Of a DNA stretch of 60,125 nt, positions 7,429 through 60,125 are shown piece by piece. A model generated the notes under the pieces. That model saw only the letters and a list, made by a program, of their open reading frames with translations. It made no database searches and had not been told where the DNA came from. This stretch comes from a virus. Where the stretch lies: positions 1 to 60,125 of the IMG/VR virus record IMGVR_UViG_3300032245_000758. One strand, written 5' to 3'. The position numbers and the translations under genes were made by a program. How positions within the stretch are numbered: the stretch's first letter is position 1; each line of letters opens with the position of its first letter.

Positions 7429-10400
7429 ATGGCAACTAACGGAGAAATATTAGATACAGCGCCTTTGTGGTGGGAAATACAAAATATTCCCACAGAAGCA
7501 GTTAGAGAATTGAGAAGAAGAAACAACACCAATAATATTGGTATGAATATTCCCACTCCGTTTATTAACACAACATTTGACTTTGAAAAAAACTACAAGA
7601 ACTACAAAGGTCCAATGACTCCGTGGGCTAGAGTATTCAGTAATAGTACTGGCAAATCAATTAATGGAATGGTGCCTAGAAGTGCTTATCTAGATAAAAA
7701 CTATGTTCAGAAAGACTATAATGGTTTTATATTGAAAGGTGGAGATGGATTTTTTAATGCATTTGGATACGAACAAGACAAACCACTTAATCAAAAGATC
7801 GCAGTAATTGGTTACGAGGCAGATGGTACTCCTCATTATATTGACAACAAATACCGCACTCAGACTAATTTTGAAACAAAAAGGAATATTGATTTCCCAC
7901 AGAACAATCAAGTTTCTCCGATTATACCGCCGCCTGGATTAGTTAGTGTGAGTGTAAAACAAAGTAAAGAACTTTTGACTTATTCAAGTTTCAAGTTTAA
8001 ATGTTACGGAGTTGCACAACTTGAATATTTAACGCCTTTCTTTTTAACAGCAGGCATAAATGTATTTATAGAATTTGGATGGAATCTTTTTAATCAAAAG
8101 TCACTCATCGATTTAAACAATTTAAAAGAGTGTTGGGATTTAGTAAATAAACCACAGACTGCGTTAGACAGAGCAAACAAATCTAATGGTAATTATGGAT
8201 GTGTTAGTGGTATTATAACAAAATATTCATTTAATACAAATGATGGATTTGTGTATGACTGCAATGTAGATGTTATTTCTCGACAAGGAATGTTTGCGGG
8301 AATGAGAACTGATAACAATGCTAAAATAGCAACGACTACACCAGCAACAGCCAGTGATCAAAACAATGTAGAGTTTTTAGATCTAAGAACTTTTATACGT
8401 ACTTATTTGCCATCAATAAATGATGTAATGCGTGAAAGTCAAACGATTTCTGCGAATGTTAATAACAGTCAAGCTAATTTCTTGAATTATATAATCGATA
8501 AGATAAACATGATTCCTAAGAATAAAGTTACAAAAGATGCGTTGGCTAATGAAGAACAATTAGCAAAGAGCAAACAAAATGTGCAGACTGTGGTAACTAC
8601 AAAACTCGCTGGCAGTAACACAACTTTATTTTACGGAGGTAAACCTGAAGATAGAGTTTTTGCGGGTAGATTAGAAGAGTTTTATAGAGCTAAGAAGAAA
8701 CCAGATGGAAAATCTGATGTTATAGACTACGGCACCGTAAAACCTAATAATCAATCATATACGCAACTTTCGTTTGTTGACGATAAAACAGATTTTGACT
8801 CTAAAGATGGATCAACCGAAGTTTGGATGCAGCTGGATTTCGTGTTTGAATTGGTTAATTTGTTCATGGCAAATTCAAACACAAATCAATTCTTAGTAGA
8901 TATCAGCGATATAATCATTAGTGGTCATCCAAACTTAATCTCTTGTGATAAAAACGTTTTGATACCAAACCCAGTTTCTCCAAAGATAAATCGTGGATCT
9001 CCATATAAAAAGAATTCGCCCAATAGTGGATTCTTAAAAAATGATAACCAGGATCCATCAAACAATTCGTTTCTAAGACAATTGCAAGACATTACTGTGC
9101 CAAAAAATGATCAATTGGAACGATTATATAAAAAAGCGGTAGAAGAGGGAACACTGACGGAATTTTATAGAAACTTAACTCCAGAAAATAGTTTTTATTT
9201 TGCCGCAAATGCAGCTAAGAAAGCATTTAAAACGAGTGGTAGATATAGAGATAACATCGATAGTGTAATTAATTATCTTTATTATCATAGCGTAAACTCA
9301 AACAGAAATTATTCAGCTTCTTTTCCGTTTGCAGAAGATACGATTTTAACTAGAACAAACAACTTTGGACAATCTATTAATGTAAAATACAAAAAGTATT
9401 ATTATGGATATTTGAAAAATCTTTATATAAGTAAAACTAAGTTGATCGAAATTGTACAATCGTCTGACACCAAGAATTATAAACAGTTTATTAATGCGAT
9501 ATTAAACACATTAAATGAGGCCGTGGATAATTTTTGGAAATTTGATATTGTTGAAGGTAAAGATAAAAATGACAAATCAACTCTATCTATAATTGATAAA
9601 AACACTTCTAATTTCGATGAGTTGCGTGAAGTGTATATGTTTGAATTGGGCAGAACAAACAATGTCATTAGAAGCATAAATTTTGACGTTAGTTTAACTA
9701 ATGAACAGGCTATAAATGTAATGTTTGGTGGACAAAATTCTACTAATTTAAGAACAAAACTAACTGATCAAATAACGACTTCACAAACAAAAGATAAGTT
9801 AAATGCTACATTAAACGATTTAAATAATATTCCATTTTTGAAGTTTGTGGATAGAATGGACAAATACCAACTTGGGTTATTAGCAACACAACAAAGTGGA
9901 TCTATTGTAAGTGCGGATACATTGGTTCCAGGAGCATCTTCTGGTATAGAAGATGATAACAATGCAATTGCAGATCTCCAATCTTATGGATCCAAAGAAA
10001 AAAGCGGAGTGTTGTGTATCACAACAAAACAGGTGTCATCGAATTATATATCAGCTTTGAAAAATCTCAGTACGTCTTCTGCTACCGGAATTGGTCGTGC
10101 AGCGGCCGCCGCTCAAGGTGGAATTAACGCTAACCAAAAAGCACAAGACTTCGAAGACTTAATAGACGATAATATAAATCTTAAAAATCATAAGTTTTTA
10201 TGTTTACCTTCAGATATGAAAGGTAAATTGACTCAGATGATGAATGATGATGATTACAAAAACAACGGCGCAAAATATAGCGGTGTTGCTGATAACTTTA
10301 CGGTCACAATAAAATTTGACGGTATATTCTCATTTAGAAACTTACAGGTTTTTGCAATAAGTAATTTGCCAAAGCCATATGTACCTGGCAATATAATATT

Positions 10401-10894: not shown

Positions 10895-10922
10895 TTGACT
10901 TTTGCCAAAAATGGTGTAAAGT
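10895..10922 (+). promoter_or_regulatory. Sigma70-like promoter for the family-A-polymerase-like gene
   Basis: TTGACT, 16 nt, TAAAGT. A second TTGACA box lies at 10889-10894. The -10 box ends exactly 6 nt before the GTG start at 10929, so transcription would begin at or within a base or two of the start codon (leaderless mRNA). Confidence 0.5.
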
Positions 10923-10928
10923 TAATTT

Positions 10929-12227
10929 GTGAAGTATAACTCAAAGATTTACGTAAAACTAATTGCTAAAGATAATAATTGTCATAATAAGAACAATTCT
11001 ATTATCGCTGCGTTTGTTTATGACTTTGAATCTGAAGACAAATACTATTACAATTTTTCCCATGGCGATGTAATGGTTGATTGTACTTTTGATAAATTCA
11101 AAGAAGAACTTGAATCAGGTAAGTATATCGTTTATGTAAACAATAAAAAGACTTATAAATATTGGTTGAATTGTAAGTTGGTTGATGTAAATTTATTCGG
11201 GTTTATCAACAACAATGAAACTCTTAAAGAATGTTCATCTTTTACAAAAGACTTTCTTGGTAGAAACTATCATAACATAAACAGTTTCAATTTAATAGTT
11301 CCATATGTTAATCATCAAGAATGTTTTGATGATGAAGTAGAAACAATTAAAGAGTTACACGAACAAGAAACAGATACATATTGTTTCAAGTTTTTCAATG
11401 ATATTATTACAGATACATTGTTTGAAGTTGAAAAGAATGGATTAAAAGTTAATGTGGATGTATTCAAACAACATTTTAAAGCTCGTACATATGATGGGTT
11501 TATATATACAAATTACAACATATACAATCCTACTGGAAGACCGAGTAATTCATATGATAGCATCAATTATGTAGCTCTAAAGAAAGATGATGGGTCCAGA
11601 AACAGTTTTGTGTCTAGGTATGGCAATGATGGTCATTTGATGATGATTGATTTTACAGGTTTCCATCCATACATCGTAGCTAACCTAATTGATTATAAAG
11701 TACCCGAGGAAGAAACCATTTATGAACATTTAGGTAAACAATATTTTGGGGTAGAAGAAGTTACATCTGAAATTATTGCTAAATCCAAGAAATTAACGAT
11801 GGTTAACTTGTATGGCCAAATATCATCTCAGTATTGTAATATACCATATTTTGCTAAAGTAGAATCTTTGAAGAATAAGTACTGGGAAACATTCCAAAAG
11901 AAAGGATATGTAACCACTCCTATTTATAAACGAAAAATTACAAATAAGCATATTGCGGATCCAAATAAGAACAAGTTATTTGCTTATATTATTCAAGCAG
12001 CTGAAACTGAACATGGAATTGATAGTTTGGGAAAATGTGTAAAGTTTATCAGTAACAAGAAAATTGTTCCTATATTGTATGTATATGATTCAATCGTATT
12101 TGACGTTCATAATGACGAAGATAGTCAAAACGTATTGGATTTGATTGATATATTTAAGAATAAACGTTTTAAAGTCAAGACTTATGTGGGAAATAATTAC
12201 AATGATTTGAAATTAGTCAACTTATAA
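10929..12227 (+). CDS. Family A DNA polymerase-like protein (palm/fingers, no active exonuclease)
   Basis: The C-terminal 230 residues follow the Pol I order of motifs: TGRPS (202-206), an R-x-x-FV pair (224-228), motif A with Asp241 (MMIDFTGFH), motif B on KKLTMVNLYG (287-296, matching K758 and Y766 of E. coli Pol I), a glutamine-helix (FAYIIQAAETEH) and motif C YVYDSIVFDV with Asp387. Both metal-binding aspartates are kept. Glu710 of the SQIE motif is His-like here, the HDE of motif C is YDS, and the O-helix arginine is not evident. The N-terminal 150 residues could be a decayed exonuclease domain. GTG start 6 nt after a promoter -10 box. The phage also has a family B polymerase, so this may be an accessory or repair polymerase, or catalytically altered. 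Confidence 0.65.
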   Translation: MKYNSKIYVKLIAKDNNCHNKNNSIIAAFVYDFESEDKYYYNFSHGDVMVDCTFDKFKEELESGKYIVYVNNKKTYKYWLNCKLVDVNLFGFINNNETLKECSSFTKDFLGRNYHNINSFNLIVPYVNHQECFDDEVETIKELHEQETDTYCFKFFNDIITDTLFEVEKNGLKVNVDVFKQHFKARTYDGFIYTNYNIYNPTGRPSNSYDSINYVALKKDDGSRNSFVSRYGNDGHLMMIDFTGFHPYIVANLIDYKVPEEETIYEHLGKQYFGVEEVTSEIIAKSKKLTMVNLYGQISSQYCNIPYFAKVESLKNKYWETFQKKGYVTTPIYKRKITNKHIADPNKNKLFAYIIQAAETEHGIDSLGKCVKFISNKKIVPILYVYDSIVFDVHNDEDSQNVLDLIDIFKNKRFKVKTYVGNNYNDLKLVNL

Positions 12228-12254: not shown

Positions 12255-14414
12255 ATGAACTTTAAATCCCTAATTAACGATATTTGTTGTGATAGTCGTA
12301 TCAAGAATGGTACTTTTGATATGACCAATACAGACCATGTTTTTATTTTGCAAGAGTATCTTGAGAAGTATGGCAATGACATTAACACAATTGTAGATAA
12401 GACTGCTGTACTATTTGAAGCCGGTAGATTTCCAGAAAGACAAGCATATAACAAAGACGGAATACTTGTCACTTTTCCAAGCAAAGAATATCGTGATCGT
12501 GCTGTAAATAAAGGAACTCATTTTGCTGAGAATCCTAAAAAATCACAAGCAAATATTTTTACAGAACCCCCAGCCGATGTTCAATCGGATAAAGTCGCAT
12601 CAAAAGAAGACGAAAAAGATGTACAAGTTCCAATCGATCAAGCACTAGACCGCAAGATCGTTGATACTGATAAAGACGAAAGAACTCCCAAAGAAAAACA
12701 ACAAGATGCGGTTGCTATACAAAGTGTGTTAATAGGACAGACTCCACTTGTAAATTATAGCGTAGATGAAGCTAAGAAGTTTGGTTTCTATAAAAAAGGG
12801 CTAGAGTGGTTTGATACAAATGGAAACTTGATCGGAGAACAAGTATATGATGAAGCTTCAAAGAAGCCTGTTATTAAACCATCTGTAAAAGGATCTTCTG
12901 GCGTAAAGTATAGCAAAGAATATTTTAAAATAGCAAAAGATAATTTGTTTTACGAGCCAATAGCTGGTATGGATGATGCTGGTAAAACCATACCACCGGA
13001 ACTTTATTTTCAAAAAGTTTTTGAAACAACTAATTTTGATGCATTTAAATTTCCAAGAGGAAGAGATATACAGTTTACATTTAATGACTTCGACAAATAT
13101 CTATCCACAAACAATGTTAACTTAGTACCAGCTTCCACTTACGTTAAAATAAGAAGTTTGTCAGATGAGCGATTGGTACAATATAACAAGAACGATGTAC
13201 AAACTCTTGCGGTATTGTCTATGTTGTATAAAAAATATACAAATAAGTTTGTATCTAAAGCTAATAGTGATTTGGATAAATCTTGTCCCGCCAGACAAAT
13301 GGAAAACTATATCGGTGAGGAATTTAATAAATCCGGCGGATCAAAAAATGCAGTTGCTAAAAAAATTGCAGACAAGTTGAAAATCGGAAAATATAAAGAA
13401 ATTAGTGTTCCGGTTAAATCCGTTGAAATTTTGGGTACATCGGGATGTAATTTATCCGAGGAGTTTGCTGGTATATCAAAGATATCTAAAACCGATTTAA
13501 TCATCAATGGCAACATAAAATGTAGTGCGAAAAAAGCTGGTGGAGCACAAATCGCTTCGTCCCAACATAAGGAACTTACTACAGTAATGTCCGCAGTATT
13601 GAAAGACTTTCCAGAGATCAAAAACAAAATAGTAGCCAATATAACTGAGACGTTAGCACATTTAATGGAAAAGTCTTTTTATTATGAACACGCCGATATT
13701 ATTAATAAGAATCTAACTACATTATCGACCAGTACAGATTCAAAGAAAACTAAAGATGCTGTAAATAATTTGATTGGCTTGATTAAAAGTCCAGATGCAG
13801 TCAATGATATCAAAATAGAAGAAAAAGAAATGCATCAAATGTTGTCGGAATTAAATAAAATTTTCACCGAGGACAAATATAAAAAAGCATTGTTGAGAGA
13901 ATTTTCAACTGGAGAAAAAAGATTTGGCGCTGGTGAAAAATGTGTAGCCGATCATATTATGACTTGGGATTGTCAAGGTGATTGCTTGATTTACACAGTA
14001 GACGAATTTATAGATGATAACTATAATAAAATTAAATTTGGTGTTCGTGATAGAGGCAATGAACGCGGTGGATCATTAAGAATTGGAATTCTAAAAGAAG
14101 AATATGATGAAACTGATTATCTTTTATTGGAAAATCAAATCATAGAAGAAAGTTTAATGTCATTCATTAATAATTTAGGCGCGGAATTTAAGAACGTGAT
14201 TCAAAATAGTTTGGAGTTTGTGAAACATCTTTCTGCTTCAGCTAAGAGTGCTTTGAATGTATTTTATAATAAAGTAAGAGAGTTTTTCAAAAAAATGGTA
14301 ATTAAAATATCCATTGCTGTAAAACAAATTTTAGATAAAGGATTTGAACATTTTGCCAATTATTTTGACATGGAGCCAAAGATTGACGGTAAATTTGAAT
14401 TTGAAATACCATGA
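12255..14414 (+). CDS. Unknown 719-residue phage protein, possibly structural
   Basis: I do not recognise the family. The N-terminal 150 residues are charged and look flexible. The middle (about 380-440) holds a Gly/Ser/Lys-rich block with SKTDLIINGNIKCSAKKAGG and ASSQHKE. The spacing of the Asp and two Lys residues is reminiscent of nuclease-like or restriction-fold active sites, but it is too weak for a call. The C-terminal 90 residues are amphipathic helices. A TATAAATA element 25 nt upstream and AAGAG before the ATG suggest late expression. Its stop overlaps the next start (ATGA). Confidence 0.6.
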   Translation: MNFKSLINDICCDSRIKNGTFDMTNTDHVFILQEYLEKYGNDINTIVDKTAVLFEAGRFPERQAYNKDGILVTFPSKEYRDRAVNKGTHFAENPKKSQANIFTEPPADVQSDKVASKEDEKDVQVPIDQALDRKIVDTDKDERTPKEKQQDAVAIQSVLIGQTPLVNYSVDEAKKFGFYKKGLEWFDTNGNLIGEQVYDEASKKPVIKPSVKGSSGVKYSKEYFKIAKDNLFYEPIAGMDDAGKTIPPELYFQKVFETTNFDAFKFPRGRDIQFTFNDFDKYLSTNNVNLVPASTYVKIRSLSDERLVQYNKNDVQTLAVLSMLYKKYTNKFVSKANSDLDKSCPARQMENYIGEEFNKSGGSKNAVAKKIADKLKIGKYKEISVPVKSVEILGTSGCNLSEEFAGISKISKTDLIINGNIKCSAKKAGGAQIASSQHKELTTVMSAVLKDFPEIKNKIVANITETLAHLMEKSFYYEHADIINKNLTTLSTSTDSKKTKDAVNNLIGLIKSPDAVNDIKIEEKEMHQMLSELNKIFTEDKYKKALLREFSTGEKRFGAGEKCVADHIMTWDCQGDCLIYTVDEFIDDNYNKIKFGVRDRGNERGGSLRIGILKEEYDETDYLLLENQIIEESLMSFINNLGAEFKNVIQNSLEFVKHLSASAKSALNVFYNKVREFFKKMVIKISIAVKQILDKGFEHFANYFDMEPKIDGKFEFEIP

Positions 14415-14803
14415 TACAAAAACAATTACTTTGCACATTTTCAAATAGTGTAGAATACACAAATGTGTTGAAAGAAATACCTCAACAATATAAATTGATT
14501 GATAATAAGATCTTTATATTTGCTAATGAAAATAATCTGCGGGAATTGTATTTGACATTTAATGTTGAGAAAATTGATCGCAATAATCGTTATAAGGGTA
14601 CTATTAGTATTCATCGTAAGAAACAAACAAATACACTATATACGCTCAATGCAATGAATAAGTTGATTGCTGACGAAAACAATGGTGTGTTTGATAAGAA
14701 CTTTCAATTAAATTGGGAATTATATAAAAACAGTATTATATTAACCAACGAAATTGGTGTAAAAATAGTTCCATTAAAATTGTTTTCTATATCTGAAGTT
14801 TGA
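14411..14803 (+). CDS. Conserved-looking phage protein of unknown function
   Basis: The 130-residue product is not recognised. It is a mixed alpha/beta, soluble-looking protein with RYKGTISIHRKKQTNTLYTL in the middle and LNWELYKNSIILT near the end. No signal peptide, membrane segment or metal motif is visible. The ATG overlaps the stop of the 719-residue gene (ATGA), so the two are translationally coupled. It ends just before the promoter and leader of gene 32. It may be structural, like its partner, or a small regulator of the replication genes. Confidence 0.55.
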   Translation: MIQKQLLCTFSNSVEYTNVLKEIPQQYKLIDNKIFIFANENNLRELYLTFNVEKIDRNNRYKGTISIHRKKQTNTLYTLNAMNKLIADENNGVFDKNFQLNWELYKNSIILTNEIGVKIVPLKLFSISEV

Positions 14804-14926: not shown

Positions 14927-15760
14927 ATGGCATTAGACATTAGCAAGCTAAAGAGTCGTTTGAACTCTCTTTCAAACACAAATCAAAAATCCAACTTGAT
15001 TTGGAAGCCAAAGCCAGGCAAACAAGTGGTTCGTATCGTTCCTTACAAGTATGAACCTGATAATCCGTTTATCGAACTAAAGTTCCATTATAATATCAAC
15101 AACAAGACTTATCTATCTCCTGATAGCTTTGGTCGTCCAGATCCAATTGTTGAGTTTTCCAATCGTCTGAAGAAGACTGGTTCCAAGGAAGATTGGCAGA
15201 TGGGACGTAAGATGGAACCAAAGATGCGTACTTTTGCTCCTGTAATCGTTCGTGGTGAAGAGCATGAAGGCGTTAAGTTCTGGGGATTCGGAAAACAAGT
15301 TTATCAAGAACTACTTTCTATTATCAGTGATCCTGATTTCGGTGATATTACCGATCTAACCAATGGTCGTGATATCGTTGTTGAATTCAAGACTGCTGAG
15401 GGTGGTGCTAGTTTCCCAGAAACCAGCATTCGTGTTAAGCCAAATGTTAGTGTAGCTGTTGATCCAAAGAACAGTCAGTTGCTCGACGCTCTAAAGACCC
15501 AAGTTAATATCTTGGATCTATTCCCAGAACTATCCTATGAAGAACTCAAGGAAGTTATGGATAAGTGGTTGAATACTGATGCTGAAGCTACTGATGCAGC
15601 TGTTCCAACTACAACTGCTTCAACAGCCTCAGATGACGATGAACCTCCATTCACGGCACCTGCTAAAGCTGCAACCGCATCAGCATCTTCACCAACTGCT
15701 GCTAAAGCAAAGGGTAAAGACAGTGTAGAACAAGCATTTGATGACTTGTTTAACTCCTAA
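14927..15760 (+). CDS. 32: Single-stranded DNA-binding protein gp32
   Basis: The 277-residue protein has the gp32-type N-terminal basic start (MALDISKLKSRL) that serves cooperative binding. The OB-fold entry motif is KPKPGKQVVRIVPYKY (27-42). The C-terminal tail is low-complexity and Ala/Thr-rich, turning acidic before VEQAFDDLFNS, and would recruit replisome partners. Length is close to T4 gp32 (301). The zinc Cys/His cluster of T4 gp32 is not evident, as in several distant homologues. It is the first gene of the replication block, followed by a hairpin terminator and then uvsX. Arginine codons are almost all CGT. Confidence 0.85.
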   Translation: MALDISKLKSRLNSLSNTNQKSNLIWKPKPGKQVVRIVPYKYEPDNPFIELKFHYNINNKTYLSPDSFGRPDPIVEFSNRLKKTGSKEDWQMGRKMEPKMRTFAPVIVRGEEHEGVKFWGFGKQVYQELLSIISDPDFGDITDLTNGRDIVVEFKTAEGGASFPETSIRVKPNVSVAVDPKNSQLLDALKTQVNILDLFPELSYEELKEVMDKWLNTDAEATDAAVPTTTASTASDDDEPPFTAPAKAATASASSPTAAKAKGKDSVEQAFDDLFNS

Positions 15761-15771
15761 AAAATAAAAAT

Positions 15772-15805
15772 AAGCCGGTGGAGTTTTTATACCCCACCGG
15801 CTTTC
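15772..15805 (+). terminator. Hairpin terminator between gene 32 and uvsX
   Basis: A 10-bp G+C-rich stem (AAGCCGGTGG with CCACCGGCTT, 12-nt loop) is followed by only a short T stretch (TTTC). A-rich sequence on the 5' side could make it work on the other strand as well. It could limit read-through from the highly expressed gene 32. Confidence 0.7.
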
Positions 15806-15819
15806 TAGTTATATACGTT

Positions 15820-16962
15820 ATGGCAAAGAAAAGTGTTACAAAGGATACAACGGGTCAACGTGACGAGTTAATCGAAATGTTGGCGAATGAGCTTAACAAA
15901 GCAAACAAAGACGGTGGTAAAATTGCACATTTCCTAGACGAACAAGATAATCCTTCAGAAATTACTGATTGGATTAGTACTGGCTCTTCTATTTTGGATC
16001 TTGCAATTAGTAATCGTCCACACGGCGGTCTACCAGTTGGTAAGATGGTTGAATTCAACGGACTTGAAGGTACTGGTAAGAGTCTATTGTCGGCACACGT
16101 TGTCGCAGATACACAGAAGAAAGGTGGTGTCGCTGTAGTAATTGATACTGAAAACGCAGCTGCGCCTGAGTTCTGGAAGAGTCTCGGCGTAGACTTGTCT
16201 AAGCTATTGTATGTTCAATGTGAAACCGTTGAAGATATTTTCGCTCAGATGGAACGAATGATTGCTATTGTTCGTAAGAGCAATAAAGATCGTATTTTAA
16301 CAATTATTGTTGACTCTGTAGCAGCGGCATCTACCAAAGTAGAACTTGAAAGTGATCATGGTAAAGATGGTTATGCTACTGGTAAGTCGATTATTATCAG
16401 TAAAGCAATGCGTAAGATTACTACTATGATTGGTCGTCAGAAAGTACTTACTGTATTTACCAATCAGCTACGTCAGAATCTAAATGCTATGGCATTTGGT
16501 GACAAGTATGTAGTTAGTGGTGGTAAAGCACTTGCTTATCATTGTAGTGTTCGTGTTCGTTTGAATAATACTGGTAAACTTAAAAAAGGTGAAGAGATTA
16601 TTGGAAACGAATGTAAAGCGGTTGTTGTAAAGAATCGTATGGGTCCGCCACAACGTCAAGCTGCTTTTGATATTTATTTTGACTCTGGAATTGCAGATTA
16701 TGGTTCTTGGATCAAAGTATTGAAAGAAAACAACTTGGTAAAACAAGGTGGTGCTTATTACACTTATAAGAAGAACGATGGTAATGAATGGAAGTTCCAG
16801 TCCAAAGACTTCGTAACTACAATGCAAAGTGACAAAGAATTGAGTGAAGAAATTTACTTGAAGATTTGCGATGCTGTAATTATGAAGTACAAAGATCCTA
16901 ATAGTCAAATTATTGAGGATGCTGTCATAGATACAGAAGAAACTGCAGGTAACGAAGAATAA
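15820..16962 (+). CDS. uvsX: UvsX recombinase (RecA/RAD51 family)
   Basis: A strand-exchange ATPase for recombination-dependent replication and repair. Walker A is GLEGTGKS (81-88), Walker B is LTIIVDSVAAAS near 160-171, and a DNA-binding loop region follows TNQLRQNLNAMAFGDK. 380 residues, like T4 UvsX (391), with an acidic C-terminal end. An in-frame GTG at 15778 lies inside the terminator hairpin, so ATG 15820 is the real start. The rnh gene follows 4 nt after its stop. The order 32-uvsX-rnh-41 keeps core replication functions together. Confidence 0.9.
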   Translation: MAKKSVTKDTTGQRDELIEMLANELNKANKDGGKIAHFLDEQDNPSEITDWISTGSSILDLAISNRPHGGLPVGKMVEFNGLEGTGKSLLSAHVVADTQKKGGVAVVIDTENAAAPEFWKSLGVDLSKLLYVQCETVEDIFAQMERMIAIVRKSNKDRILTIIVDSVAAASTKVELESDHGKDGYATGKSIIISKAMRKITTMIGRQKVLTVFTNQLRQNLNAMAFGDKYVVSGGKALAYHCSVRVRLNNTGKLKKGEEIIGNECKAVVVKNRMGPPQRQAAFDIYFDSGIADYGSWIKVLKENNLVKQGGAYYTYKKNDGNEWKFQSKDFVTTMQSDKELSEEIYLKICDAVIMKYKDPNSQIIEDAVIDTEETAGNEE

Positions 16963-16966
16963 TAAC

Positions 16967-18034
16967 ATGAGTGGATTCAGTTCATCTGAAAAGAAAAAAC
17001 TGTTTTCCTTGTTTGAAAATATCAAGGAGGGTGTTGGAAATGACGGTCTCAAAAAGACTACCAATTCTGACATCCTCCTTGTTGATGGTCTTAATACTTA
17101 CATTCGTAGTTTTATGGCCATTCCTTCACTCAATGAGGACGGATTACACACTGGAGGTATTGCTGGTTTCTTAAAGAGCATTGGATATGCAATTAAGTTA
17201 CTTTCTCCCACCAGAGTTATTATTGTATTTGATGGCAAAGGTGGTAGTCAGAAACGCAGAAAGATTTATCCAGATTACAAAAACGGTAGAAAGACCGACA
17301 TTCGTCTTAACCGTAATTATGAAGAACTATCTTCTTCAAAGATTGAGTCTGTTAACTTTAAAAAAGAATTGATTCGCACTGTAAATTATTTAGATACATT
17401 GCCTGTAACAGTTATGGCAATTGATCAAATAGAAGCAGACGATACAATTGCTTATTTAGCTAAAGAAACTTTCAAAGACAGCAATGTAACAATTATGTCT
17501 ACAGACAAAGATTTTCTTCAATTAGCAAGTGACAAGATTAAAATCTGGAGTCCAACCAAGAAAAAAGTATTTGGTTGTAAAGAGATAGTAGATGAATATG
17601 GAATTACGTGTAACAACTTTATCTTTTATAGAATTATGGAAGGTGATGTTAGTGATAATATTCCTGGTTTGGATGGTGTTGGATTGAAAAGAGTGGTTAA
17701 AGCATTTCCGTTTTTATCAGATGGAAATCAAGCTTGTTTACAGCAAATTTATAACTACTCTGAAAATCATCGGGGAGAATATAAAATTTATGAAACTGTA
17801 TTGAGTAATAAACTATTGCTTGGTCGCAATTATGAATTGATGCAGTTACATAACACACAAATTCAATCTTTTACACAACTACGTGTAGAAGAAATAGTAA
17901 ATACTCCCGTTAGAAAAATTGATAAAATTAGTTTCTCAAAACTAATCACAGAGGATAAAATGTGGAATAACATTCCCAATTATCACATCTGGTTAAATGA
18001 GTGTTTCGGTAAATTAAATAGTTTCGTGGAATAA
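16967..18034 (+). CDS. rnh: RNase H / 5'-3' exonuclease (FEN-1 superfamily, T4 Rnh-like)
   Basis: Removes RNA primers and 5' flaps on the lagging strand. The 355 residues show the FEN acidic clusters: ILLVDGLNTYIRSF (36-49), VIIVFDGKGGSQKRR, IEADDTIAYLA and STDKDFLQL, then the helix-hairpin-helix MEGDVSDNIPGLDGVG. Length is near T4 Rnh (305) with a longer C-terminus. It begins 4 nt after uvsX and ends before the promoter of the helicase gene. Confidence 0.85.
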   Translation: MSGFSSSEKKKLFSLFENIKEGVGNDGLKKTTNSDILLVDGLNTYIRSFMAIPSLNEDGLHTGGIAGFLKSIGYAIKLLSPTRVIIVFDGKGGSQKRRKIYPDYKNGRKTDIRLNRNYEELSSSKIESVNFKKELIRTVNYLDTLPVTVMAIDQIEADDTIAYLAKETFKDSNVTIMSTDKDFLQLASDKIKIWSPTKKKVFGCKEIVDEYGITCNNFIFYRIMEGDVSDNIPGLDGVGLKRVVKAFPFLSDGNQACLQQIYNYSENHRGEYKIYETVLSNKLLLGRNYELMQLHNTQIQSFTQLRVEEIVNTPVRKIDKISFSKLITEDKMWNNIPNYHIWLNECFGKLNSFVE

Positions 18035-18095: not shown

Positions 18096-19478
18096 ATGGA
18101 AAACAAAAAAGCAATTGATTCGTTAACAAAATACGGCCGTGACTTCCAAATCAAGTGTATTTCATGCTTGATATCTGATCGTTCATTTATTGAACGTATT
18201 CATGATATTATTGAAGTAGACTTCTTTGAAAGTGATGCAAATAAGTGGGTGGTAAAAGAAAGTATTAAATATTTCAATGAATATAAAGATCTTCCAACAT
18301 TAACAGTATTTAAGATTAAAGTTGACGAAGTACAAGACGAACTTCTAAAACGAAGTATCGTAGACAATCTCAAATTGGTCTATCAGAAAGTTAGCGATAA
18401 CGATTTGAAGTTCGTTAAAGAACAGTTTTTGGAATTCTGCAAGAATCAAAAGCTAAAGAACGCTATCATTGAAAGTGCCGATCTATTGGCGCTTGGTCAA
18501 TACGAAAAGATTAAAAACGTAGTAGATCACGCAATGAAAGCTGGTATGGAACGTAATATCGGCCATGATTATTCCGAAGACGTTGAAAAGCGTATGAGTG
18601 TAATGAGTCGTAATTGTGTTAAAACCAATTGGACTGAAATTGATACAATTATGGATGGTGGTTTGGCTGCCGGTGAACTAGGTATTATTACAGCTTGTGC
18701 TGGTAGTGGTAAAAGTTGGGTACTGTCCAAGTTAGGTGCTGAAGCAATGAAGCAGGGTAAGAATGTAGTTCATTTCACTCTTGAGTTGAATGAAAACTAT
18801 GTGGGTCTACGTTATGATGCTTGTTTCACTGGAATTGATTTCCAAAACATTCGTAACAACGTTGATATCGTAAAGCAGAAGATTGCTGATGTTCCTGGTA
18901 AGTTGAAGATTAAATACTTCCCAATCAAGACAGTTAGTGCTTATAGTCTAAAAGCACATTGTGAACGATTGGCGGTACTTGGTACTAAAGTAGATATGAT
19001 TATTGTTGACTACGCTGATATTCTACGTCCATCTCAGAGTGAACGTAATAGTAACAGTTATAGTGAAGCTGGCGGTATCTATGAAGAACTACGTGGTGTA
19101 GCTGGCGAACTACAAGTTCCTATTTGGAGTGCTTCACAGAGCAATCGTGCTGCTATGGATGAAGATATCATTCAGGCCAATAACATCGCTGATAGTTATC
19201 GTAAGATTATGACTGCTGACTTCGTTATGTCGCTCAGTCGTAAAGTTAACGATAAACAGGCAAATACAGCACGTTTCCACGTAATTAAGAATCGTTTCGG
19301 ACCAGATGGTTTGACATTCCCAAGTAAGATGAATGCTGGTTGTGGTCACATTGAAATTTATGGAGAAAATAGCCGTGAGGGTATGAGTATTCTAAATGAA
19401 ATGATGGACGGAGAAAATCAAGTTAAAAAAGCACTAAAGTCCAAGTGGAACGTCCATAATAGTGATGACGAAGAATAA
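18096..19478 (+). CDS. 41: Replicative DNA helicase, gp41/DnaB family
   Basis: A hexameric 5'-3' helicase of the replisome. The RecA-like motor starts near residue 170: Walker A ACAGSGKS (200-207), an H1a/HFTLELNE motif, Walker B MIIVDYADIL (about 306-315), then a glutamine/serine sensor (PIWSASQSNRAA) and an arginine-finger region VIKNRFGPDG. The N-terminal 150 residues are helical, as in DnaB. 460 residues, matching T4 gp41 (475). A separate promoter precedes it. The T4 helicase loader gp59 and primase gp61 are not in this window. Confidence 0.88.
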   Translation: MENKKAIDSLTKYGRDFQIKCISCLISDRSFIERIHDIIEVDFFESDANKWVVKESIKYFNEYKDLPTLTVFKIKVDEVQDELLKRSIVDNLKLVYQKVSDNDLKFVKEQFLEFCKNQKLKNAIIESADLLALGQYEKIKNVVDHAMKAGMERNIGHDYSEDVEKRMSVMSRNCVKTNWTEIDTIMDGGLAAGELGIITACAGSGKSWVLSKLGAEAMKQGKNVVHFTLELNENYVGLRYDACFTGIDFQNIRNNVDIVKQKIADVPGKLKIKYFPIKTVSAYSLKAHCERLAVLGTKVDMIIVDYADILRPSQSERNSNSYSEAGGIYEELRGVAGELQVPIWSASQSNRAAMDEDIIQANNIADSYRKIMTADFVMSLSRKVNDKQANTARFHVIKNRFGPDGLTFPSKMNAGCGHIEIYGENSREGMSILNEMMDGENQVKKALKSKWNVHNSDDEE

Positions 19479-24219: not shown

Positions 24220-25191
24220 ATGAAAAATAAAAACTCACTAAATCTGGTTACTGACAAGGACTTCAATATCAAGTCATATTTGGACACTTGTGTTAACCTA
24301 CGCCCCAGTTCATTGATCATGGATGATCTGAAGTGGAAGTATATGGTACGTAGTGCTATTCGTGGCAAGAACATTCTGCTTCTTGGTCCAACTGGTTGCG
24401 GCAAGACTCTTGCTGCTCAAACGGTAGCTAAAGCTATTGGTCGTGAAGATAACTTCTTCTATTTTAATTTGGGTGCTACTCAAGATGCTCGTAGTGCTTT
24501 GATTGGTAATACGCATTTTGATAAAAAGACTGGTACTCTATTCAAGGAGTCATCTTTTATTAAAGCTATTCGTACTCCCAACGCAATTATTCTTCTTGAC
24601 GAAATTTCTCGTAGTCATCACGATGGTGTTAATATTCTAATGACGGTTCTTGATGATCTACAACGTTATCTTCGTTTGGATGAAAAGGAAGACAGTGAAG
24701 TTGTAAAGGTAGCTGATGGTGTTACATTTATTGCTACTGCTAACGTTGGTAACGAATATACCGCTACCCGTGTAATGGATCGTGCTTTATTGTCACGGTT
24801 TCCAGTTAAGATTGAGGTTACCCCACTTGACAAAGATAGTGAGTACAATCTTCTTAAGAATCGATTCAATCTGAATTCAGATGGTCAGCTTGAAACTCTA
24901 AAGGCTATTTGTGAAATTGCCGATCATACCCGTAAGCAAGTAAAGCAGGATGATAGCAAGCTTACTAATTTTATTCCAACACGTAGTACAGTTGAAATTG
25001 CTGAACTAATTGTTGACGGATTTAATTTACTTGAAATCGCAGAGACTACCATCTATCCTAACTTCAGCGATGATGGTGGCGTTGACAGTGAACGAACCTA
25101 TGTTCGTCAGTTGGTACAAAAGTATGTAAAAGTTGAATCAAAGGATAAGCTGTTTAATGATCCACTAAAGAGTGATCAGCCTCCTTTCTAA
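24220..25191 (+). CDS. MoxR-type AAA+ ATPase
   Basis: The 323-residue ATPase has Walker A GPTGCGKT (56-63), Walker B IILLDEISR (about 121-129), a sensor 1 asparagine in VTFIATANVG and an arginine-finger RALLSRFP. This is the MoxR/CbbQ layout. MoxR ATPases work with VWA-domain partners as chaperones that insert metals or remodel target complexes. The next gene, 25 nt downstream, encodes such a VWA protein, so the pair is very likely one machine. Codon use (CGT arginine) fits the early/replication set. The target is unknown. The same pair has been seen in other large T4-like phages, to my recollection without an assigned function. Confidence 0.82.
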   Translation: MKNKNSLNLVTDKDFNIKSYLDTCVNLRPSSLIMDDLKWKYMVRSAIRGKNILLLGPTGCGKTLAAQTVAKAIGREDNFFYFNLGATQDARSALIGNTHFDKKTGTLFKESSFIKAIRTPNAIILLDEISRSHHDGVNILMTVLDDLQRYLRLDEKEDSEVVKVADGVTFIATANVGNEYTATRVMDRALLSRFPVKIEVTPLDKDSEYNLLKNRFNLNSDGQLETLKAICEIADHTRKQVKQDDSKLTNFIPTRSTVEIAELIVDGFNLLEIAETTIYPNFSDDGGVDSERTYVRQLVQKYVKVESKDKLFNDPLKSDQPPF

Positions 25192-25216
25192 GTTAAACTA
25201 TTAAAAACAAATTATT

Positions 25217-27289
25217 ATGAGTAACTACAGTGACTTCTGGTTGAAGGACAACAATTATGATTGGGATTGGGAAGATGAACTTGATGCGGCTATTGAGGAA
25301 GAAAATGGTCTAGATGCAGATTTTGCTGCTGAAGATCGACTTTCTGACAATACAGCCCGATTGATTCGTTTGTCATCGGCTCGTCGCGCTGTTGCTAACT
25401 ATGTTAGTATTCTGACCAATCAGAATGTACCTGTAGTATTCAATGATAGTTCGGTGAATTGTACTGATGGTAAGGTGGTCTATATCAGTAGCGATATTAC
25501 CAAGAAAGATAATTTTGATGTGGCTGTCGGACTAGCCTTACATGAAGGCAGTCACATCAAATATTCTGATTTTGAAATGTTTAAGACTGTATGGATGAAT
25601 GTCCCACGGGAAATTTATGGATATAGTGAAAAACTAAACATTTCAAAAGATGAAGTGGGTAAGATTTGTCAGACTATTCTAAATTATGTAGAAGATCGGT
25701 ATATTGACTATACGGTACATTCTAATGCTCCTGGTTATCGTGGATACTACGATGCTTTGTATGATGAATACTTTAATAACAAAGTAATCTCAGATGCTTT
25801 GACTAGCGATCTGTATCGTACACTAAGCATTGAGTCATACATGTTTCGTATTATTAATCTTACAAACCCAGATACTTCTTTGAAAGCGTTGCCTGGATTG
25901 TATGATATTGCTAGAGAACTTGATCTATCAAATATCAAGCGTTTGACCACTCCAAAAGATAGGTTGAATGTCGCTTACAATATTGCTGAGATTGTGTTTA
26001 AGAATATTAACGAACATAAAAACGAAGATAAATCGTCTGAAAAAGGTGAGGGTTTATCAGCTGATTCTGGTATTGGTGCGCCTTCTGATAATTCAGATCA
26101 ATCTAATACAAATGCTGATGTTGCAGATATTCTTGGAGGCACTGAATCAACTGTAACACCTGATAATAAAGATGTTACTGCTGATATTGGTAAAGATGAT
26201 AATCTCAGCAAGTCTAAGAAGACCAAGATTGTTAAGTCTTTTGAAAAGCAAAAAGATTTTCTTGCTGGTAAACTCAAGAAGAAGAAAGTGACTAAGCGTG
26301 AAAAAGATTTGCTTGATATTCTTGAAAAGAGTCAGATTGATCTTGTGCCTGTAGCTCAAGAAGAGCTTAAGTCAAAAGGAATGATTGGAAATGTTGAGTG
26401 TATCTTTGTTAAGAACATGACCAAAGAATTGCTTTTGTCTGAGGAATTTCCAATGACGATTGGCAAAAACAATCAACAAGCTTATTCTGATTATCAAAAG
26501 AATGTTGACGCTGGTATTGTATTGGGTACTAAGCTAGGTCGCCGTCTACAAATTCGTAATGAAATTAATGTTGATAAGTTTACCCGTCGTAATTTGGGTA
26601 AGATTGACAAGCGTTTAATGCACGAACTTGGATTTGATACTGATACCAACATCTTTTATAATACTTTTACTACAAAGTATAAGAAAGTTAACTTCCATAT
26701 TAGTGTGGATGCTAGCGCAAGTATGCGGGGTAAAAAGTGGAATCGTACAATTAAACTGTGTGTTGCTCTAGCAAAAGCTACATCTATGATTGATAACGTT
26801 GAGGTTACTATTAGTTTTAGAACGTCAAGTGGTCACAATCCGTATATTGCAATTGCTTATGATTCGCGTGTAGATAAGTTTTCTAAGATTAAAAATCTAT
26901 TTGCTTATCTAGCACCAACTAATACAACTCCTGAAGGATTGTGTTTTGAGGCACTAATGCGATATTTGCCTAAAGCTAGTACCAATACAAATAGTTACTT
27001 TGTTAATATTAGCGACGGTGAACCAGCATTTATTTATACTGCTCCAGGCGGTGTTCATTTTCATTATCAAGGCACGGATGGTTGTAATCATACACGTAAA
27101 CAGGTAAACAAAATTCGTGAAAGTGGTTATAATGTCATTTCATACTTCGTATCTGAATATGATTGTGATGCATATCGCGATAATTTTAAAATTATGTATG
27201 GCAAAGATGCTAATTTCATCAATATAGAAAACCTAAATCAGATTGTTAGTACCATTAATTCAAAGATGATGGATGCTATTGACATATAA
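25217..27289 (+). CDS. VWA-domain partner of MoxR with embedded HExxH motif
   Basis: A 690-residue protein. Residues 109-113 read HEGSH within VGLALHEGSHIKYSDF, an HExxH zinc-metallopeptidase-type signature. The region 275-350 is acidic and low-complexity. A VWA domain starts near 490 with a MIDAS motif DASAS (498-502) and continues to a TPEGLCFEAL threonine site and SDGEP. This resembles CobT-like metal-chelatase partners and MoxR-associated VWA proteins. It forms an operon with the MoxR ATPase. The role could be ATP-driven remodelling or proteolysis of a host or phage complex; not known. Confidence 0.78.
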   Translation: MSNYSDFWLKDNNYDWDWEDELDAAIEEENGLDADFAAEDRLSDNTARLIRLSSARRAVANYVSILTNQNVPVVFNDSSVNCTDGKVVYISSDITKKDNFDVAVGLALHEGSHIKYSDFEMFKTVWMNVPREIYGYSEKLNISKDEVGKICQTILNYVEDRYIDYTVHSNAPGYRGYYDALYDEYFNNKVISDALTSDLYRTLSIESYMFRIINLTNPDTSLKALPGLYDIARELDLSNIKRLTTPKDRLNVAYNIAEIVFKNINEHKNEDKSSEKGEGLSADSGIGAPSDNSDQSNTNADVADILGGTESTVTPDNKDVTADIGKDDNLSKSKKTKIVKSFEKQKDFLAGKLKKKKVTKREKDLLDILEKSQIDLVPVAQEELKSKGMIGNVECIFVKNMTKELLLSEEFPMTIGKNNQQAYSDYQKNVDAGIVLGTKLGRRLQIRNEINVDKFTRRNLGKIDKRLMHELGFDTDTNIFYNTFTTKYKKVNFHISVDASASMRGKKWNRTIKLCVALAKATSMIDNVEVTISFRTSSGHNPYIAIAYDSRVDKFSKIKNLFAYLAPTNTTPEGLCFEALMRYLPKASTNTNSYFVNISDGEPAFIYTAPGGVHFHYQGTDGCNHTRKQVNKIRESGYNVISYFVSEYDCDAYRDNFKIMYGKDANFINIENLNQIVSTINSKMMDAIDI

Positions 27290-58453: not shown

Positions 58454-58609
58454 ATGGGAAGAAAAAAACTTAATAGAACTGAAAATGAATTGCGAGAACA
58501 AAAACGAATTCGGGACAAAAAATATTACACTCGACATAAATCAAAAATTTTGCAAAAAAGAATGCAACGATATTGGAAAAATGTGGATAAAAAATTGTCC
58601 AATCTGTGA
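58454..58609 (+). CDS. Basic N-terminal piece of the homing endonuclease (frame-disrupted)
   Basis: The 51-residue frame starts MGRKKLNRTENELREQKRIR and continues KKYYTRHKSKILQKR, a very basic helical lead-in typical of phage homing endonucleases. It stops at 58607-58609. At the A6 run 58589-58594 a +1 change would join it to the next gene's CPIC zinc finger, giving one continuous protein of about 258 residues. So this is probably the true N-terminus of the 58485 gene, interrupted by an indel or read by frameshifting. Confidence 0.5.
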   Translation: MGRKKLNRTENELREQKRIRDKKYYTRHKSKILQKRMQRYWKNVDKKLSNL

Positions 58610-59231
58610 TGTAAAACAGTCTTATAAAAGCAAAAGGTCTTTTTGGAATGCAAATAAATTAAATTCCATTTGTAGATCTTGTAAAAATAAAGGAACGAAT
58701 AATCCTTTTTACGGAAAAAAACATACAACTGAACATAAAAATAAACTATCCGTTATTCAAAAAACAGAAGGATCTTTTAGATACAAACAGTTCGGCGGTA
58801 ATCCTAAAAAAATAGATAAAATTTGTAAAAAGTGTAGTTTTAAATTTAAAACCGTTTATTCAAATAAAAGTGTATATTGTTGTTACAAGTGCGCATTAAA
58901 AGATAATTTTGGTTTTATTTTTAACAAAATGACAAAACCTGAAATTGAAGTTGAAAAATATTTAAAAGATTCTAATATAGAATATAAATATAATTATGAA
59001 TTATGTGGTAAGTTATATGATTTTTATATACCATCTACTAATACTTTAATTGAAGTTGATGGAGTTTATTGGCACGGTAAAAATAAAAAATTAAATGAAT
59101 TAAATAAAACTCAGTTGAAAAATCATAAAAACGACAAAATAAAAACTAGACTTGCGAAGAAACACGGTTATAATTTAATTAGAATCTGGGAAGATGAGGT
59201 AAAAAATGTATCAAAATATATACGTAGATAA
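58485..59231 (+). CDS. Vsr/DUF559-type homing endonuclease with NUMOD3-like motif
   Basis: The frame is open from an ATG at 58485, but the first 36 residues look like out-of-frame read-through of the basic ORF at 58454. The domain order is zinc-ribbon CPICD...CRSCKNKG, a NUMOD3-like NPFYGKKHTTEHKNKLS, a second zinc-ribbon (CKKCSFKFKT...CCYKC), and a nuclease domain with IEVDGVYWHGK and a YNLIRIWEDEV end. The last part matches the Vsr/DUF559 fold used by EDxHD homing endonucleases. It abuts the polymerase gene, overlapping its start by 26 nt, a typical landing site beside a conserved target. Confidence 0.72.
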   Translation: MNCENKNEFGTKNITLDINQKFCKKECNDIGKMWIKNCPICDVKQSYKSKRSFWNANKLNSICRSCKNKGTNNPFYGKKHTTEHKNKLSVIQKTEGSFRYKQFGGNPKKIDKICKKCSFKFKTVYSNKSVYCCYKCALKDNFGFIFNKMTKPEIEVEKYLKDSNIEYKYNYELCGKLYDFYIPSTNTLIEVDGVYWHGKNKKLNELNKTQLKNHKNDKIKTRLAKKHGYNLIRIWEDEVKNVSKYIRR

Positions 59232-60125
59232 AAAAAATAATATTATTCACCTGTGGGACGACGGTAAAACCGGAAATTCTAGATACGTAACCGTTCCTTA
59301 TCGTCCATATGCTTATCGCAAACGTGAAGGCGGAATGTATCGTAGTATTTATGGCGATGAATTGGAGAAAGTGTATAAATTCAATCCAAAAGATCCATCA
59401 CTATTTGAAAGTGACGTTCCAGCAGAAACTCGTATTTTAATCGATGCTTATGAAGATAGTGATGAACCATCTGAGGGTCATCGTATTGTTTATCTGGATA
59501 TCGAAGTTAGTACTGAAGGTGGTTTTCCAAATGTAGAAGAAGCTGATAAAGAAATCACAGCTATTGCTATCTATGATAGTGTAACATCGAAATATACCGC
59601 ATTCATTCTTGATAAAGAATATAAACTAAAAGACTTTTCTAAAGACAACGTAGAAGTTCTAAGTTTTACTGAAGAAGATAGTTTGTTGATGCATTTTCTA
59701 ACCAAGTGGGAAGAAATTCAACCAACTATTAGTACTGGATGGAACAGTGATAACTTCGACATGCCATATCTGTTTCGTCGTATGAAAAATATTGTTGGTC
59801 CAAACAATGCAAAACGTTTGAGTCCAATTCAAGTTGCTTATGTCAATGACTGGAATAAGAAAGTCATTGTAGCTGGAGTAACACATTTGGATTATATGAC
59901 TCTTTACAAGAAGCTCAATATCAAACAAGAGGCAAGTTATGCTCTTGGAGCTATTGGTAAAAAGATCGTGGGTATGGAGAAGATTACCTATAAAGGCAGT
60001 TTGGATGATTTGTACAAAGCTGATATTCAGAAGTATATCGAATATAACTTGAACGACGTACAAATCATTGTTGCTTTGGAGAAGAAGTTACAGTTTATTG
60101 AATTAGCTAGGGCTATTTGTCATAA
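59206..60125 (+). CDS. 43: DNA polymerase gp43, family B, 5' part (runs off window)
   Basis: ATG 59206 has GAGGT 5 nt upstream. The visible 306 residues are the N-terminal and 3'-5' exonuclease domains. Exo I is YLDIEVS (D98, E100), Exo II is GWNSDNFDMPYL (N180, D185) and Exo III is YIEYNLNDV (Y280, D284). The proofreading site is therefore intact. The palm and fingers lie beyond the window. The start overlaps the end of the homing endonuclease gene. CGT arginine codons match the replication set. The full gene would be expected to reach about 850-900 residues, as in T4. Confidence 0.93.
   Translation, partial: MYQNIYVDKKNNIIHLWDDGKTGNSRYVTVPYRPYAYRKREGGMYRSIYGDELEKVYKFNPKDPSLFESDVPAETRILIDAYEDSDEPSEGHRIVYLDIEVSTEGGFPNVEEADKEITAIAIYDSVTSKYTAFILDKEYKLKDFSKDNVEVLSFTEEDSLLMHFLTKWEEIQPTISTGWNSDNFDMPYLFRRMKNIVGPNNAKRLSPIQVAYVNDWNKKVIVAGVTHLDYMTLYKKLNIKQEASYALGAIGKKIVGMEKITYKGSLDDLYKADIQKYIEYNLNDVQIIVALEKKLQFIELARAICH

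Follow-up and report, generated by a model that had tools for sequence, protein, structure and literature searches.

A divPolA1-type family A DNA polymerase homologue with a histidine at the steric-gate position, encoded in a phage that also carries a family B polymerase

In the main text of Yutin et al. (2024, PMC11348598), divPolA1 is described from 14 phages of 155 to 190 kb, immuto among them, as a protein with a truncated thumb, an inactivated exonuclease and a conserved palm that probably keeps polymerase activity. It sits beside a regular family A, B or C polymerase, and a part in replication was suggested. The same text sets apart divPolA2 of the barbaviruses, a divergent phage PolA that likewise accompanies a regular PolB and has no normal thumb, but that carries an unrelated globular domain at its N terminus and lies among variable neighbouring genes. 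In the literature searched, the terms divPolA1 and divPolA2 occurred only in this paper and its preprint.

Here we analyzed a stretch of 60,125 nt, IMG/VR record IMGVR_UViG_3300032245_000758 (the window), whose last open reading frame (ORF) is unfinished at the window end. It encodes a 432-residue protein that resembles divPolA1, as presented in the main text of PMC11348598, in its full-length homology to immuto gene 1 (tblastn E = 3e-38 over 96% of the query), truncated thumb and conserved palm, and perhaps in an inactivated exonuclease domain, and its gene lies upstream of the same replication genes with a regular polymerase elsewhere. The immuto homology, the regular polymerase, the downstream genes, the palm residues and the truncated thumb were all found here when fully tested, and the window protein is almost certainly a divPolA1 member. 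It differs from the immuto protein in sequence (~28% identity) and in residing in a PolB phage, and from the published outline of divPolA2 in that its N-terminal region was matched by alignment to that of the Pol I exonuclease. An earlier sequence-only reading had called a polymerase I-like gene unexpected in a phage carrying gp43; given that the divPolA1 group was published in 2024 (PMC11348598), this was too strong. The protein and the large fragment of Pol I (Klenow, Bst) have the fold, domain order, TGR, motifs A, B and C and the Q helix in common, but the protein lacks the thumb, its gate Glu is replaced by His and HDE by YD[S/A], and its phage encodes the 5'-3' exonuclease as a separate gene.

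Table 1. Positions of the polymerase gene, its motifs and neighbouring or related genes in the window
Feature	Position	Strand	Remarks
divPolA1-type family A DNA polymerase homologue	10929..12227	+	432 aa, GTG start
N-terminal domain in place of Pol I 3'-5' exonuclease	10944..11378	+	residues ~6-150; VIA alignment
Missing-thumb site	11451..11516	+	residues ~175-196; ~4 residues vs 94 in Klenow
T202-G203-R204	11532..11540	+	motif in 432-aa protein
Motif A, D241-F-T-G-F-H246	11649..11666	+	His at steric-gate position; Klenow alignment register
Motif B / O helix, K287...Y295-G296	11787..11816	+	Klenow alignment register
Glutamine helix, Q356...E359-T360	11994..12008	+	motif in 432-aa protein
Motif C, Y386-D387-S388	12084..12092	+	replaces HDE; Klenow alignment register
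719-aa ORF between divPolA1 and companion gene	12255..14414	+	phrog_22045, E 5e-6, no known function
Companion gene	14411..14803	+	~130 aa, no known family; conserved between divPolA1 and SSB
gp32-like single-strand DNA binding protein (SSB)	14927..15760	+	Pfam gp32, 4.4e-14
UvsX/RecA-type recombinase	15778..16962	+	Pfam RecA, 1.5e-53
5'-3' exonuclease, Pol I N-terminal type	16967..18034	+	Pfam 5_3_exonuc_N, 4.9e-31
DnaB-type replicative helicase	18096..19478	+	Pfam DnaB_C, 1.4e-22; phrog_19, 1e-78
Family B DNA polymerase (gp43-like), N-terminal part	59206..60125	+	ATG 59206; cut by window end

Fold, domains and gene start

An AlphaFold2 model of the protein, built from 62 sequences, was confident (pLDDT 94.6, pTM 0.90). 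Its top PDB match by Foldseek was Klenow (1kfd, E = 6.9e-19), and VIA-align superposed it on a 580-residue chain of Bst Pol I with Z = 28.2 and an rmsd of 3.1 over 404 of 432 residues (model range 1-428). The family profile retrieved Klenow at E = 8e-11, and of the 62 family members, 40 matched Pfam DNA_pol_A (PF00476) at E ≤ 0.001, the strongest at 1.5e-15. The window protein alone scored 16.8 bits against DNA_pol_A (E = 0.0035), under the gathering cut-off of 34.3, and its phmmer search of the PDB gave chance flagellar matches only, so profiles were required to reach Klenow. The relationship to Pol I proposed in the sequence-only reading was thus borne out by both profile and structure prediction. 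Because the alignment with the large fragment of Pol I spans the full length of the model, however, the protein is not palm-only, as that reading had it: an N-terminal domain, palm and fingers are all present, and the thumb alone is absent.

The position of the deletion is apparent from the profile alignment, in which profile positions 152-186 correspond to Klenow chain 201-235 and positions 191-412 to 330-584. Chain 236-329 faces ~4 residues, and we take these 94 Klenow residues without a counterpart to be the thumb. Conservation was assessed in 113 representatives, obtained by clustering at 85% identity from 222 hits (153 distinct sequences of at least 330 aa). Conserved positions in the N-terminal domain are H19, H45, K73, K74 and D86. 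Within residues 1-169, the columns that are acidic in at least 70 of the 113 (47, 86, 100, 131 and 168) lie off the places to which we mapped Klenow D355, E357 and D424 by eye; by this mapping, which leaves out D501, the exonuclease catalytic acids have apparently been lost. None of the canonical Pol I features thumb, motif A Glu and HDE motif is present in the window protein.

An in-frame TAA at 10923-10925 lies upstream of the GTG, so the ORF has no earlier start; position 10895, from which the gene had been drawn, marks only a promoter-like TTGACT hexamer. The promoter-like site at 10895-10922 has 9 of 12 matches, and a scan of 9 kb found 54 comparable sites against 46.2 ± 5.8 in shuffled sequence. 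A Shine-Dalgarno-like motif is missing from 51 of the 55 window ORFs of at least 120 aa, and its absence before the polymerase gene therefore says little. Given that the site count is near that of the shuffles and the absence of Shine-Dalgarno-like motifs is general, the dedicated leaderless promoter proposed earlier is unsupported. The next gene is, as had been stated, a 719-residue ORF, which occupies a slot of variable length between the polymerase and the ~130-aa gene.

Spread, conserved residues and selection

Relatives of the window protein were found well beyond the published 14 phages of 155-190 kb (PMC11348598, main text), and they include a 484-kb record and at least 563 IMG/VR stretches that were confirmed in a profile search, the best 80 of which were kept. 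Among annotated phages, tblastn matched seven records. Four belong to Flavobacterium phage immuto and are annotated as "DNA polymerase family A"; in Microcystis phage Mel-JY01 the match is annotated as hypothetical, and the other two records are the 484-kb LR756508 and a fragment of 5.6 kb. Five metagenome-assembled (MAG) contigs matched when bacteria and archaea were searched with one genome per species; three of them are named Flavobacteriales, Winogradskyella or Flavobacteriaceae, and these may be phage contigs. Group members also gave weak tblastn matches (23-26% identity) to DNA polymerases of Staphylococcus phages MR003, Terranova and others and of Roseobacter phage CRP-3, a possible link of divPolA1 to ordinary phage PolA.

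All of the Pol I motifs listed in the sequence-only reading are present in the expected order from T202 to D387, including the replacement of HDE by YDS and the altered motif A glutamate (Table 1). R204, N213, D241, H246, K287, Q356, E359, Y384, Y386 and D387 are identical in all 113 representatives, and Y295 is found in 111. Since the patterns used in the IMG/VR profile scan contained the FH of motif A and YxYD of motif C, the invariance of these two motifs was partly selected. Nevertheless, H246 and Y386 were each present in 45 of the 45 representatives that were reached solely via companion or UvsX patterns, with no motif A or C pattern.

Comparison of the window protein with its nearest relative, L001, gave a dN/dS of 0.046 at a dS of 0.21; six other pairs gave 0.034-0.097, but at saturated dS values of 1.4-3.5. 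Given this ratio and the invariance of the catalytic residues, both Asp, Lys287, Arg204 and Gln356 among them, the gene is under strong purifying selection and is not the decaying relic that had been envisaged. Because the ratio is accompanied by 40 IMG/VR loci with best-segment identities of 56-98%, the observation goes beyond chance.

Replication neighbourhood, main polymerase and proposed role

Downstream of the polymerase gene, SSB, UvsX and the 5'-3' exonuclease were present in all ten nonwindow representatives with at least 7 kb of downstream sequence, and DnaB was present in nine. The order SSB-UvsX-exonuclease-DnaB was kept in each of the 31 representatives that show all four genes. 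The exonucleases of the window, Mel-JY01 and immuto carry Pol I-type 5'-nuclease domains, so one cluster here holds separate genes for polymerase and 5' nuclease, two parts that bacterial Pol I joins in a single protein. In contigs G001 (7814-8743) and G002, a homing-endonuclease-like ORF lies between UvsX and the exonuclease; it is 26% identical to a NUMOD3/Vsr-type homing-endonuclease-like ORF at 58485-59231 (+) of the window, immediately upstream of gp43. Elsewhere in the window, at 24220-27289, a MoxR-like AAA ATPase is followed by a 690-aa ORF, both more than 95% identical in G002; the 690-aa ORF had no Pfam or PHROG match, and its C-terminal half resembles a VWA domain. A minus-strand block of ~24 kb extends from 33472 to 57386 (-), and of three ORFs scanned in it, one was GtrB-type glycosyl transfer-like and two fell in families without known function.

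The ORF at 59206 matched DNA_pol_B_exo1 (E = 2e-23, scanned from 59230) and, by phmmer, the PolB of Mel-JY01 (4e-70). The phage therefore does carry gp43, at least in part, and the pairing of a family A-like polymerase with a family B replicase stands as first read. PF00136 had no match in the window, which holds the exonuclease part of the PolB gene only, or in any of the five contigs G001-G005 (53-134 kb), which are fragments. A regular polymerase was identified elsewhere in the immuto (PolA, 778 aa), Mel-JY01 (PolB) and LR756508 (PolB) genomes and, as PolB, in six of eight further long contigs; the other two are fragments, and family C (PF07733) had no match in the eight. The PolB matches of LR756508.1 fall in two ORFs of ~1017 and 621 aa (260623-266900), possibly reflecting an intein or intron.

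A DnaG-like primase (PF13155) was detected in six of seven records, three of the six matches at E ~0.003, the exception being the 60-kb window fragment; two of eight further contigs also had one (E ≤ 0.01). The PF13155 ORFs are mutually homologous (33-41% identity between lineages), two bear a primase or primase-like annotation, and that of G001 passes the Pfam DnaG zinc-ribbon cut-off. Because a dedicated primase is present in these six records, no further primer maker is needed, and we rejected the idea that divPolA1 is a necessary primase substitute.

divPolA1 is probably an active polymerase. The best explanation of the locus, to which we give a little less than even weight, is an accessory gap-filling divPolA1 that works with a separate 5'-3' exonuclease. 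The phage carries a divergent family A polymerase beyond its main replicase, with a deleted thumb, a polymerase site that is probably active and a former proofreading domain that has probably lost its activity and now acts as a scaffold. Such a protein may perform short, distributive synthesis, as in gap filling, RNA-primer replacement or the extension of recombination intermediates, together with the Pol I-type 5'-3' exonuclease, SSB and UvsX of the same cluster, and the two halves of bacterial Pol I would have been rebuilt as separate phage proteins. Gap filling is the one role from the sequence-only reading that we retain, as a tentative inference, and divPolA1 may likewise act together with the exonuclease or with the ~130-aa product.

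Several considerations weigh against this explanation. Without a thumb, a polymerase may hold primer-template too loosely to act alone, and divPolA1 retains neither the Glu of motif A nor the His and Glu of motif C of true Pol I. Gaps could be closed by the polymerase I of the host and by the phage replicase, and the conserved neighbourhood also fits initiation, helicase loading or recombination. Moreover, a second polymerase was missing from all five of G001-G005 and from the two of eight other contigs mentioned above, albeit all of these are fragments.

The companion protein, the gate histidine and alternative readings

The first alternative concerns the ~130-aa companion: divPolA1 would supply the polymerase to a two-part enzyme, and the companion would either take the place of the thumb or confer processivity. 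Of the 65 representatives examined, 56 show SSB, and 55 of these have the companion gene between it and divPolA1; the exception is L147. In the reverse test, for which 84 loci were scanned, divPolA1 was present in every one of the 40 companion loci whose upstream sequence reached 5.5 kb or more. The pair is kept where the RecA-like gene differs (L041, which is immuto, L144 and L157, at 19-22% identity to the window UvsX) and whether the main polymerase belongs to family A or B. Across 40 companion sequences, six residues (R69, K70, N74, Y77, N80 and N83) never vary. Against this, the companion model, although confident (pLDDT 92.5), gave no informative structural match, its best Foldseek hit in the PDB having E = 0.15 and none reaching E ≤ 0.001; searches of Pfam yielded single chance matches but no family, and in PHROGs 1 of 40 members matched, to phrog_22857, which has no description. 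A UvsX-based search for relatives without polymerase or companion covered 72 loci, 34 with at least 9 kb upstream; some of their contigs recur from another of the searches made here. Of these 34, 32 hold both genes and two hold the companion with an upstream stretch too short for divPolA1; none clearly lacks either gene, and none lacks both. Since no relative has clearly lost one of the two, joint inheritance remains an explanation of the pairing, which is perhaps mere descent within one clade. We consider the two-part enzyme unlikely.

The gate histidine suggests a second alternative, namely, relaxed sugar selection that lets divPolA1 use ribonucleotides and make or extend RNA or mixed primers. 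H246 pairs with Klenow Glu710 in the profile-to-sequence alignment and, as noted above, is invariant both among the 113 representatives and among the 45 reached independently of motifs A and C. Glu710 is presented in a preprint (PMC13228545) as the steric gate of family A against ribonucleotides. In immuto, Glu stands at this position of the full-length PolA, albeit in a weak single-sequence hhalign alignment (E = 0.18). Neither "steric" nor "histidine" occurs in the main text of PMC11348598. A bulky His may still exclude the 2'-OH, however, and the DnaG-like primase is in place in six of the seven records searched, making this reading rather improbable. We rate equally low the combination of the two alternatives, a two-subunit family A polymerase in which the companion serves as the thumb and the His gate alters sugar selection.

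A translesion or error-prone polymerase would fit the lack of conserved acids at the exonuclease sites placed by eye, the reduced DNA-binding surface, both compatible with low fidelity, and the proximity to UvsX, but the fixed place of the gene in a replication cluster speaks against it, and we regard it as improbable. A noncatalytic relic or structural factor, such as a helicase loader or scaffold, is just as improbable, for the loss of the thumb, the probably dead exonuclease and the subthreshold Pfam score of the window protein are countered by the invariant polymerase core and the low dN/dS.

Relative to the main text of PMC11348598, the new points are how widely the group occurs, the invariance of its His gate, the selection on the gene and the companion. 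These data suggest that divPolA1 occurs far beyond 14 phages, is strongly selected, has an unusual gate residue throughout and is linked to a small protein. Small thumbless polymerases with altered selectivity would be of interest to enzymologists, and a natural His-gate family A enzyme with its companion now offers concrete tests of activity and sugar selection. If the two-subunit His-gate enzyme proved true, it would suit RNA-primer extension or replacement beside any family A, B or C replicase.
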